23,610 nucleotides of DNA from a virus: IMG/VR virus record IMGVR_UViG_3300023179_000517, positions 1 through 23,610 of that record; one strand, 5' to 3'. The translations under genes were made by a program, and so were the position numbers. The notes below the pieces were generated by a model, which was not told where the DNA came from, made no database searches, and saw only the letters and a list, made by a program, of their open reading frames with translations. The stretch's first letter is position 1; every line of letters begins with the position of its first letter. This document shows, piece by piece, positions 1 through 21,344 of this stretch.

Positions 1-693
1 ATTTGCATGGCGAAATGAATGACAATGAATAAATTGACCATTGATAACAAAACCACAACGAACATCGCCAACACCCAACCATTCAATATCTGTCCAGAAA
101 ATTTGCGCTTTTGCTAAATCTAAAATTGCTCCAGATGGACCAGTGCCATCTAGTTTATCATAATTCCAGCCTGTCTGGACTGCTGGTGTGTCTACAACTG
201 AGCCAGTTACAATAGACCTTTCAACAAAACTGATTGTATTTCCAGATTGTTCTAAAAAGATTCCGTTGTTTGCACCAAAGTATCCAACACGTTGTCTTAA
301 ATTCTCCTTCGCTTCATTCATCACCATAGTGTTCAAAATCAGTAACGATTTTCCTGGTTGATAAGACATAACTTTTGTCGTTTCACGAATAATTTCATTA
401 TTTGCCGCACCATTCGTCAAAGTTAAACTAATTAGACCTTCATTTGATGAAAATGCATAAGTTGTATTTGCAGTATTTGCAGTCGCCCAAAGACCATTGT
501 CTTTATAGCGATGTGACGAATCAAAAAGCGTTAATGGTGTTGATACTCTCAATCTACCAAATGCATCGGTTGCAACGCCTGTCGGATTTGCTGCGCTAAT
601 CCGATTGCCGTATTGATCGGCAAGCATGATAACATCAAAAAGTGTTTTTGATTGGTCTAAGTATTGTTGAGTATTTTTATTAAATTGTGCCAT
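1..693 (-). CDS. Probable virion structural protein, N-terminal 231 residues (3' end outside window)
   Basis: This open frame begins with ATG at 693 and runs without a stop to base 1, so only the first 231 codons are visible. It abuts the upstream gene as TAAATG, with an AAAGGA ribosome site about 10 bases before the start. The protein opens MAQFNKNTQQYLDQSKTLF. Later it has the phrases DAFGRLRVS, RVGYFGANNGIFLEQ and DIEWLGVGDVRCGFVING, which from memory resemble conserved structural proteins (baseplate or fibre associated) in phages of marine bacteria. The residues are Gly/Asn/Thr-rich and beta-prone, with no enzymatic motif. It lies downstream of a late-type promoter at 1948-1955, which fits a virion component. 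The family recollection was not checked, and the exact virion location is unknown. Confidence 0.7.
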   Translation of the reverse strand, partial: MAQFNKNTQQYLDQSKTLFDVIMLADQYGNRISAANPTGVATDAFGRLRVSTPLTLFDSSHRYKDNGLWATANTANTTYAFSSNEGLISLTLTNGAANNEIIRETTKVMSYQPGKSLLILNTMVMNEAKENLRQRVGYFGANNGIFLEQSGNTISFVERSIVTGSVVDTPAVQTGWNYDKLDGTGPSGAILDLAKAQIFWTDIEWLGVGDVRCGFVINGQFIHCHSFRHAN

Positions 694-10839: not shown

Positions 10840-10875
10840 AGCGTTCCCCTTTATTAAGCGAGTTAAAATTGAAAT

Positions 10876-10958
10876 GTTACCCCGAAGGCGTAACGATTTG
10901 GCAGATTTGACTAGGATGCCAGCCTAGTTTTAATCCCTTGGGGTTTCCTCAGGATAAA
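10876..10958 (-). ncRNA. Candidate structured RNA / leader of hsp20 (three hairpins)
   Basis: Read on the minus strand, three stems occur in 83 bases. Stem 1 pairs TTTATCC (10958-10952) with GGATTAAA (10936-10929), with one bulge. Stem 2 is CTAGG-CTGGCAT-CCTAG (10927-10911), five pairs closing a seven-base loop. Stem 3 is GTTAC-G-CC-TTCG-GG-GTAAC (10894-10876) with a UUCG tetraloop. No U-run follows stem 3, so it is a poor terminator. The region lies between the HTH gene and hsp20, with the last stem ending about 37 bases before the hsp20 start. A regulatory leader, thermosensor or small RNA are all possible; no known class was recognised. Confidence 0.4.
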
Positions 10959-10959
10959 C

Positions 10960-11220: not shown

Positions 11221-11247
11221 AATAAAACTAAGAATTATTTCTTAGTT
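11221..11247 (-). terminator. Intrinsic terminator of the secreted-protein gene
   Basis: The minus strand forms a 9-bp stem (AACTAAGAA with TTCTTAGTT, 11247-11226) around an ATAA loop, followed by a U-rich run (TTATTATT). The 5' arm contains the last sense codons of the gene and the stop codon lies in the loop, so termination occurs right after translation ends. Together with the promoter at 11482-11510 it isolates the gene as a one-gene unit. Confidence 0.75.
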
Positions 11248-11462
11248 GGTTCTGCGGCAGCCTTTTCAGCCTTTTCCTTTTCTTTGTCTTTAGGAGTTTT
11301 TGCTTTAGGCTTTTTTGCCGCCTCTGTATCAGCAGGTTTATCTGCTGGTTTTGCTGCCTCAGATTTTGCCGCTTCCTTCTTTTCTGCTGGCTTGTCTGCT
11401 GCAAATGCAACTAGTGAAATGGATGTAAGTCCTACAATAATTAGAGATTTTAGTGATGTCAT
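11235..11462 (-). CDS. Secreted low-complexity Ala/Lys/Glu/Pro-rich protein, 75 aa
   Basis: ATG 11462 follows AAAGGAAAAAA at good spacing. A longer frame to 11546 would cross the promoter and is rejected. Residues 1-21 (MTSLKSLIIVGLTSISLVAFA) form a textbook Sec signal peptide with predicted cleavage after AFA. The mature 54 residues are built from only seven residue types (A, K, E, P, D, T, S), with no aromatic, Cys or hydrophobic core residues, so it should be disordered and periplasmic. Its base composition is richer in GC than that of its neighbours. Such proteins occur in proteobacterial genomes, for example acid-shock-like proteins. It has its own promoter and terminator, the layout of a moron. 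The role is unknown; host-envelope or stress effects are guesses. Confidence 0.75.
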   Translation of the reverse strand: MTSLKSLIIVGLTSISLVAFAADKPAEKKEAAKSEAAKPADKPADTEAAKKPKAKTPKDKEKEKAEKAAAEPTKK

Positions 11463-11481
11463 ATTTTTTCCTTTAAAAAGA

Positions 11482-11510
11482 ATTATATCAAAATAAGATT
11501 GAAAAGTCAA
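11482..11510 (-). promoter_or_regulatory. Sigma-70 promoter (TTGACT-17-TATAAT, extended -10)
   Basis: The minus strand has TTGACT at 11510-11505 and TATAAT at 11487-11482 with a 17-base spacer and TG one base before the -10 (TGATATAAT). Transcription should begin near 11475, about 13 bases before the start codon at 11462. It serves the secreted-protein gene and lies just after the stop of the oxygenase gene (11515). Confidence 0.85.
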
Positions 11511-12987: not shown

Positions 12988-13386
12988 TTATCTCTCCTTT
13001 TTCAATCCACCTTTTTCTAATTTTTGTTTCATAATTTTAAGTTGATCAGGAGAAATCAAACAAGAGATTTGTTTAGCCTTTGTGGTGCTATAACCAAAAT
13101 ACTCAGAAATGACTTTTATATCCTCGACCAACTCATTCTTTAACCACTTACTATATCGCTTTCGTGGTCTTATACTATTTAGTAAATAGGTAAATTGAGG
13201 TTTTCCGTCGAGAGTATTATGAAAATTCATTTCATTCGCATACAAAACTGTGTCTGGAAACAAAGAAAGTCCACGATTTACAATAAACGCATTATATGCT
13301 TTTTCCGCAAGTTCATCGTTTTCAGAGCCAGTCATCATATCTTTCTTCGTTTGACTAACTGCATTAATATAATCAAAGGGACTCAT
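12988..13386 (-). CDS. 62: Clamp loader small subunit (T4 gp62-like)
   Basis: With four gp44 subunits, one gp62 forms the clamp loader that opens and places gp45 on primed DNA. The 132 residues are short, as in marine T4-like phages (T4 gp62 is longer). The phrases AYNAFIVNRGLSLFPDTVLYANEMN, NSIRPRKRYSKWLKNEL and ISEYFGYSTTKAKQ fit the gp62 family pattern as I recall it. ATG 13386 has GGAAAA upstream at good spacing; GTG at 13389 is a possible alternative. It overlaps the nuclease-like gene by 14 bases instead of following gp44 directly. RegA follows after two bases. Confidence 0.88.
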   Translation of the reverse strand: MSPFDYINAVSQTKKDMMTGSENDELAEKAYNAFIVNRGLSLFPDTVLYANEMNFHNTLDGKPQFTYLLNSIRPRKRYSKWLKNELVEDIKVISEYFGYSTTKAKQISCLISPDQLKIMKQKLEKGGLKKER

Positions 13387-14041
13387 CACTATTTTCCATC
13401 ATAAAATTAATCAACGTTGTAGGCTTTGATGTTGGCGTTAGACTTATAGGTTTTGATTTGTAGTTGTTCAATAATTTTGAATTAATTTCTTGATCATGAA
13501 TAATGATGTTCATTACATCATCATACGATATTTCAAGTATTTCACATAATTCATTTCCAGTAATAATTTGAAAACTTGAATCATTAAAATAACTGTCTGT
13601 TCTTTTTCTTTTATCGATTGCACCACCAGCAAAATCTGAAATTTTAATTTCTACGAAATCAAATTCGTTACTTAAAAAATTTTTAAGTTCAAGATAAGAT
13701 TTTTGTTCAGTTGGTGCTTGCTTTGTATCGATATTGTAAGCGTTCAGTTTATTCTCACACACAATTACTTTTCTATTTTCTAGAATGACAAAATCAGGCT
13801 CTCTATTATGTATCTTAGTTTTTAAGAATAAAGTTTTTTGACTACACTTATGCCTTTGCTTCCATTCCGTAACAGGAAGTTTACATAAACTTCTCATAAT
13901 TTTTTCTAGATGCGTACCAAACTTCGATTGTGCTGAAGACAGTGTACTAAAAAATCTAGCAGTTTCCAAATCTCCTGTTAATAGAAATACTGGTGTTCTT
14001 CTTAAATGTTCATCACTTAAATTTTTTTCTTCGATGATCAT
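13373..14041 (-). CDS. PD-(D/E)XK nuclease-like protein inserted between clamp-loader genes
   Basis: The 222-residue protein has a recognisable restriction-endonuclease-like core: E47 in FGTHLEKIMR, P82-D83 in EPDFVILE and E96-N-K98 in KVIVCENKLN, giving PD-x12-ExK with hydrophobic strands around each acid. A charged stretch with Gln/Tyr (QAPTEQKSYLELKNFL) follows, as in many members. It probably cleaves DNA with Mg2+. It overlaps gp44 by four bases (ATGA) and gp62 by 14, sitting between the two clamp-loader genes that are adjacent in T4. It could be a free-standing homing-type endonuclease, a restriction-like enzyme or a repair nuclease. Target and role are not visible. Confidence 0.7.
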   Translation of the reverse strand: MIIEEKNLSDEHLRRTPVFLLTGDLETARFFSTLSSAQSKFGTHLEKIMRSLCKLPVTEWKQRHKCSQKTLFLKTKIHNREPDFVILENRKVIVCENKLNAYNIDTKQAPTEQKSYLELKNFLSNEFDFVEIKISDFAGGAIDKRKRTDSYFNDSSFQIITGNELCEILEISYDDVMNIIIHDQEINSKLLNNYKSKPISLTPTSKPTTLINFMMENSDESL

Positions 14042-21316: not shown

Positions 21317-21344
21317 AGTATAGCATAGTGGGAGAACCTGTCAA
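21317..21344 (-). promoter_or_regulatory. Sigma-70 promoter (TTGACA-16-TATACT, extended -10)
   Basis: The minus strand has TTGACA at 21344-21339 and TATACT at 21322-21317, spacer 16, with TGC before the -10. Transcription should begin near 21310, about 24 bases before ATG 21286. An inverted repeat matching that near 2560 lies 13 bases upstream of the -35 box. Confidence 0.85.

Follow-up and report, generated by a model that had tools for sequence, protein, structure and literature searches.

The stretch of DNA analysed here (the window, 23,610 nucleotides) comes from a T4-like phage, of which it is a 23.6-kb fragment, and is listed as a virus record. Its minus strand codes for the gp41 helicase, UvsX, gp43, Hsp20, an HTH_39 protein, a 2OG-Fe(II) oxygenase, a Dps-like ferritin, RegA, gp62, gp44 and gp45; gp41, UvsX, gp43 and gp45 were named by reading of their translations, and gp43 also by polymerase comparison. 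The gp43 DNA polymerase is at most approx. 56% identical to any phage record, the nearest being those of marine single-cell viruses and cyanophages (55% identity with cyanophage and marine viruses). No lysogeny genes were seen in the window, and the phages look strictly T4-like. Among the replication genes, with the stress-type Dps and Hsp20 as neighbours, lies a small gene (P0001) with a promoter on one side and a hairpin and the gene of the HTH_39 protein on the other (Table 1).

Table 1. Position and supporting evidence of the features at the P0001 locus
Feature	Position	Strand	Evidence
Sigma70-type promoter: -35 TTGACT (11510-11505), 17-nt spacer, TG (11490-11489), -10 TATAAT (11487-11482)	11510-11482	minus	11/12
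Ribosome-binding site AAAGGA	11474-11469	minus	sequence; TTAGGAG or similar at equal spacing in relatives
Exported-protein gene P0001, 75 aa, stop included (start ATG 11462, stop codon 11237-11235)	11235..11462	minus	homologues, in-frame indels, dN/dS 0.47
Signal peptide, residues 1-21, predicted signal peptidase I site AFA-AD (hyphen, cleavage site)	11400..11462	minus	hydropathy, AxA in relatives, modelled helix 2-21
Mature disordered polyampholyte, 54 aa, with motif [KR]PKxxTPK[DE]K opening a predicted C-terminal helix (residues 57-69)	11238..11399	minus	
Hairpin ACTAAGAA-ATAA-TTCTTAGT, stop codon in loop, then interrupted T-run	11227..11246	minus	fold, paired changes in relatives
HTH_39 winged-helix protein, 78 aa	10960..11196	minus	Pfam PF14090, E 4.6e-9

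The small gene and its predicted product

A search of IMG/VR with three homologues gave 52 loci, and the set was widened by searches with the neighbouring HTH_39 protein. Counted as distinct slot sequences, the gene is present in 51 relatives and in the window, and absent in 17 relatives (13 and 4 more). Judged from its evolution, the ORF is a genuine protein-coding gene, as the original prediction had it, because the length differences between homologues are all multiples of three and the pooled dN/dS is 0.47, with the lowest value within the gene, 0.35, in the core motif. The moderate overall value suggests weak constraint on the exported protein; regA, gp62, hsp20 and HTH_39 have dN/dS of 0.05-0.16. 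Synonymous divergence in the gene (0.137) is approx. three times lower than in regA for the same pairs (0.455), which fits codon bias, nucleotide-level or RNA constraint, or local recombination.

The predicted signal peptide, likewise recognised at the outset, has the n-, h- and c-regions and the AxA site typical of a Sec-exported protein processed by signal peptidase I: the hydrophobic segment covers residues 7-20 (mean Kyte-Doolittle 2.5) and ends at the cleavage site, and the AxA is kept across relatives (AFA-AD, AVA-AD, AFA-Q) though the sequence varies. The homologues have no lipobox except for a Cys at +1 of the mature protein in two loci, L053 and L054, where it replaces Ala (VAVA-CDKPAE) and might make the product a lipoprotein. 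The mature part consists solely of seven residue types, again as predicted (K17 A15 E8 P6 D4 T3 S1; net charge +5), and in the alignment it runs from a flexible A/P/K linker through the core motif and a charged helix to a C-terminal [AT]KK. AlphaFold models of 18 members gave a helix at residues 2-21, coil, and a second helix at 57-69, with a mean pLDDT of 60; as expected, P0001 appears to be without a globular domain, and the model fits a signal peptide followed by a disordered chain.

The composition of the gene carries no sign of cellular acquisition, because its GC3 (0.22) is inside the range of seven neighbours (0.17-0.33). Acquisition from a proteobacterial genome, suggested earlier from composition, finds no support either in a scan of 84,980 cellular genomes (made with alignment A7, A5 being too diverse), which yielded two matches, both from Opitutae; a cellular origin was rejected, as these proteins are larger, contain Cys and have in common with the phage family just an AADKPAEKPAD-like signal-peptide junction. 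Among 50,697 INPHARED phage records there was no match to the exported protein or to this HTH_39, and for the exported protein Pfam and PADLOC gave no match and PHROG no significant one. There were also hits to MreC, YidC and T7SS in NCBIfam and a PHROG match with an E-value of 0.014, all set aside as low-complexity noise. Homology to the E. coli acid-shock protein Asr (NCBIfam NF033636) was likewise rejected: the best E-value in the family was 2.8e-4, the score reached 16.8 bits (L020) against a cut-off of 50 bits, and two of six shuffled mature sequences also matched the profile, at 15.2-15.6 bits. The similarity thus reflects composition, and Asr is kept as a functional analogue only. The family is an undescribed, phage-specific one of probably exported disordered proteins.

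Promoter, stop-codon hairpin and the leader of HTH_39

The consensus promoter with an extended -10 is present as first described, and it belongs to a class. The gene strand of the window holds four extended -10 sites scoring at least 11/12, against 0.02 expected from dinucleotide shuffles, so a chance occurrence of the class is excluded; the opposite strand holds none. The promoter is kept in 48 of the 52 gene-bearing slots, mostly at 10-12 of 12 positions and with the TG extension. In larger contigs (relatives of approx. 150 kb) the pattern TTGACA-16..18-KANAAT occurs 13 and 19 times, nearly always on one strand, against 2 and 0 occurrences of the reversed pattern, and we therefore regard it as the phage's own early-type promoter class. 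The idea of a promoter unique to the exported-protein gene was rejected, since the equivalent class recurs across these genomes. Strong sigma70-type promoters, each just 5' of a gene, lie on the minus strand of the window at 21344, 20373, 18179, 15028, 11510 and 2556, a series that marks early units of transcription in this phage.

Gene-bearing loci all have one order over as much as each contig covers: regA, an optional Dps or 2OG oxygenase, the exported-protein gene, HTH_39, hsp20, x98 and gp43. The gene is absent across the whole of a 152-kb gene-less contig (G002) and single-copy in three others (G001, G003 and G004); as 17 relatives are without it, it is not essential. The idea that diverse cargo genes collect in this slot was rejected, since only the exported-protein family or nothing was found there, plus one extra gene in L003 (L003:1242-1634) for a 130-aa protein, ParB-like by eye and with no Pfam match, between the exported-protein gene and HTH_39.

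What remains in the gene-less relatives is informative. Nearly all of them keep the promoter, and most keep a hairpin, directly 5' of HTH_39, in an interval of approx. 85-110 bases (L004, L063, L073, L058, L059, L065 and others) laid out as a sigma70 promoter, a hairpin within approx. 10-30 bases, usually a T-run, and then the HTH_39 ribosome site; L071, whose promoter matches poorly, and L076, L121 and L141, where no hairpin is followed by a T-run, are the exceptions. A midpoint-rooted tree built from five proteins places the gene-bearing phages together, with a single gene-less group (L058, L059, L060 and L071) nested among them; the outer gene-less group retains the promoter and, as a rule, the hairpin. 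A single gain plus a single loss of the gene would suffice on this tree, the root of which is uncertain. A recent or foreign gain is not supported: the position of the gene does not differ among the 52 gene-bearing loci and their divergence is ordinary, a pattern that the original prediction had itself named as evidence against its reading; yet one nested and one outer lineage are without the gene.

The HTH_39 protein scores 36.5 bits against the PF14090 gathering cut-off of 21.3 and is a putative small regulator. It starts 38 nt past the stop of the exported-protein gene, with no promoter between, and always accompanies the promoter and leader. As gene-less relatives still have promoter and hairpin before HTH_39, the exported-protein gene is nested between the promoter and the leader hairpin of HTH_39. 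The 290 bases described as a self-contained unit are thus not one: HTH_39 follows without a promoter of its own, and in the relatives that are without the gene a promoter and hairpin of the same kind lead directly into it.

The hairpin itself, in RNA form ACUAAGAA-AUAA-UUCUUAGU (11246-11227), has a folding energy of -6.8 kcal/mol over a 40-nt stretch (z = -2.6). Stems were compared by direct stem search, since MAFFT misplaced the 3' hairpin arm. Covarying pairs include CTAAG/CTTAG, TTAAG/CTTAA (L113) and CTAAA/TTTAG (L070, L072), and L034 has a G-U form, CTAAGAA/TTTTTAG; such paired changes on both sides of the stem support an RNA hairpin. The core GCTAAG..CTTAGC is common to several gene-less hairpins and to gene-bearing ones. 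In gene-bearing loci the loop carries the last codons and the stop (GCT AAG AAA TAA), the C-terminal AKK and the hairpin thereby sharing bases, and the stop codon is within the loop in nearly all of them, the exceptions being L003 and L067, where the hairpin lies away from the stop. Rfam had no match for the window or for five relatives.

Across the family the stem is conserved and covarying with 2-3 G-C pairs, and the T-run is offset by 2-3 bases or interrupted; as it is set apart or interrupted in many members, termination may be weak. With just two G-C pairs and a T-run that is interrupted, the window's hairpin did not appear among the hits of the terminator scan. Of the overlapping terminator reported earlier, the overlap with the stop codon stands, but the element is probably a weak terminator or attenuator-like.

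A palindrome, TGAGATAA-TG-TTATCTCA, spans the -10 in most relatives (L020, L004, L073, L116 and others), with variants changed at the centre. Arms of at least 6 occur in 44 of the 52 gene-bearing slots against approx. 3% by chance in shuffled slots, the slots being related and not 44 independent cases. The perfect form is found once per genome and is common to the tree-distant L004 and L020; the window itself is without the palindrome. It may be an operator, with HTH_39 as the obvious candidate to bind it, and autoregulation of HTH_39 through TGAGATAATGTTATCTCA could be a candidate mechanism.

Several neighbouring features were also recorded. A conserved structured leader RNA of 84-250 nt (10840-10959, minus strand) separates HTH_39 from hsp20 or from a small inserted gene and is also found in L006, L004, L058, L069 and others, with no Rfam match. 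It opens with a T4-late-type TATAAATA box in many relatives, and its hairpin covaries (GATAC-GCCTTCGGG-GTATC, GTTAC..GTAAC, GCCAT..GTGGC, GACAT..TGTC, CTTAC..GTAAG); longer forms have a CCTGTA..AAGTAAGCAGG element, and the end, ACTCGCTTAATA-GGAG, is unique. L006 and most large-clade loci have, between this RNA and hsp20, a gene of approx. 75 aa (MLQNINTAIDSFQDAKTQF...), phasin-like by eye and with no Pfam match; pmoC adjoining hsp20, a methanotroph-phage arrangement, was not found in inserts near hsp20. Between hsp20 and x98 there is a strong intrinsic-terminator-like hairpin, CGGGGGACTTAAGTCCCCCG + TTTAAATT (10095-10076, minus strand). Between gp44 and gp62 the window codes for a 222-aa protein (13373-14041, minus strand) with a weak type II restriction endonuclease match and a PD..(D/E)xK-like stretch, and this junction holds different genes in other relatives. 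In L015 (1021-2625) a tryptophan-halogenase-like gene (by eye) is inserted between gp45 and gp44, and gene-less relatives have, 5' of gp44, a gene for a 115-aa protein (L004:804-1151) whose signal sequence is twin-arginine-like or of Sec type and which has no Pfam match.

Possible functions of the exported protein

The anatomy of the locus, that is the gene, its promoter, the hairpin and the arrangement of the slot, is held with high confidence. For the whole we propose an accessory gene of an uncultured T4-like phage clade, coding for an early, exported, envelope-acting polyampholyte and nested in the HTH_39 leader, a reading that we place just short of an even chance. Host sigma70 RNA polymerase would transcribe from the promoter early in infection, a timing suggested by the promoter type. 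The first product would be a pre-protein that Sec exports, and cleavage after residue 21 would free the 54-aa, net-positive, disordered Lys/Ala/Pro/Glu chain, in which the conserved motif RPKxxTPKxK opens a short charged helix. The stop-codon hairpin may pass only part of transcription into HTH_39, by partial termination. The product could then act as an abundant periplasmic polyampholyte that coats or stabilises envelope or periplasmic proteins of the infected cell, in an Asr- or hydrophilin-like manner, with Dps and Hsp20 coded nearby. Such envelope protection, argued by analogy, is tentative and on the doubtful side. A secreted low-complexity protein in a T4-like replication region, the core of the original prediction, is supported: the gene is promoter-driven, very likely early, and its product is probably Sec-exported.

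The main rival to Asr- or hydrophilin-like protection is superinfection exclusion or receptor masking, where the exported basic peptide would bind LPS, porin or peptidoglycan and block a second phage. Small exclusion proteins that act at the envelope are known from T4 and other phages (Imm, Sp, Cor), and the early-type promoter, predicted export, positive charge, accessory distribution and moderate dN/dS would all suit such a role. However, the protein resembles no PHROG exclusion family or PADLOC model, and such proteins are as a rule anchored in the membrane or carry a lipobox, for which the +1 Cys of L053 and L054 is the sole counterpart here; we consider this explanation unlikely.

Regulation by the ORF is a different matter, as it would make the exported product secondary: a ribosome at the stop codon would melt the hairpin and let RNA polymerase read into HTH_39, whose level would thus depend on how the ORF is translated. 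The stop codon in the loop, the conservation of the hairpin with covariation at synonymous lysine codons, and its presence 5' of HTH_39 even in most gene-less loci are what such a leader ORF predicts. Yet the gene-less loci retain HTH_39 and hairpin, so regulation can do without the ORF; constraint acts at the protein level, including on the AxA and the core motif; and L003 and L067 depart from the arrangement. A leader ORF alone is therefore quite improbable. A combination, in which translation or export of a periplasmic product, read by the ribosome at the stop in the hairpin, sets HTH_39 expression and in which the palindrome could be the HTH_39 operator closing the loop, is a long shot; if true, it would be a phage counterpart of SecM-type secretion monitors, tying the state of the host envelope to the replication programme.

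A true moron, that is independently transcribed cargo, freely gained and lost and of benefit outside the lytic programme, has in its favour the promoter-gene-hairpin unit and the lack of the gene at the equivalent junction of relatives. Against it, absence of the gene leaves promoter and hairpin in place, a single family occupies a single position in every locus, which speaks against cargo exchange, one gain and one loss suffice on the midpoint-rooted tree, and the phages look strictly T4-like, with a native GC3 and no lysogeny genes seen in the window. This account is very unlikely. Least probable of all, and barely tenable, is envelope disruption by a cationic periplasmic peptide aiding lysis: a basic, predicted-exported peptide with a charged helix might do so, but the promoter is of early type, the gene sits among replication and not lysis genes, and the helix is charged rather than amphipathic in a polyampholyte with 12 acidic residues.

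Comparison with known systems

Asr has His/Gln-rich repeats, and the phage protein is without these. It is also shorter, has its own RPKxxTPKxK motif and scores far below the Asr profile cut-off. The two resemble each other in that a signal peptide, predicted in the phage protein, precedes a short, basic chain that is rich in Ala, Lys and Pro and disordered, again by prediction in the phage protein; Asr is periplasmic, an intrinsically disordered chaperone that supports outer-membrane integrity (PMC10746267). If export of the phage protein is confirmed, this would be a case of a lytic phage that uses a gene in its replication operon to act on the periplasm of the host early in infection.

The surrounding region, with regA/gp43 replication genes and Hsp20, resembles that of T4-like cyanophages and cyanophage-related large freshwater phages, in which Hsp20 is a known core gene (PMC7674155). 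It differs in the exported family and this HTH_39, neither of which was found in the 50,697 phage records; the family occurs in dozens of metagenomic T4-like contigs, yet in no INPHARED phage record.

As in SecM-type leaders, a small exported protein is coded in the leader of the next gene, with an RNA hairpin at the junction. Unlike SecM, there is no known arrest motif here, the distance from core to hairpin varies by more than 10 codons with the stop in the loop, and the downstream gene codes for a winged-helix protein and not for secretion machinery.

Phage morons, like this unit, have their own sigma70 promoter and a hairpin after one small gene, and here too a promoter and a putative terminator, albeit a weak one, surround the gene. 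In contrast to morons, the signals of this unit persist without the gene and belong to HTH_39, the position is fixed, and there is no sign of foreign origin: nearly all gene-less relatives keep the promoter and most a hairpin, GC3 is within the range of the neighbours and no cellular homologue was found. The moron-like autonomy of the original prediction is not upheld, the promoter and hairpin being part of the HTH_39 leader and the promoter class genome-wide, and we advise dropping or qualifying the moron label, since these signals remain when the gene is missing. At this locus an optional gene has its place between the conserved promoter of a small regulator and the hairpin in that regulator's leader. 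A unit made of promoter, gene and hairpin is not necessarily a moron that moves independently, as its signals can belong to a neighbour.
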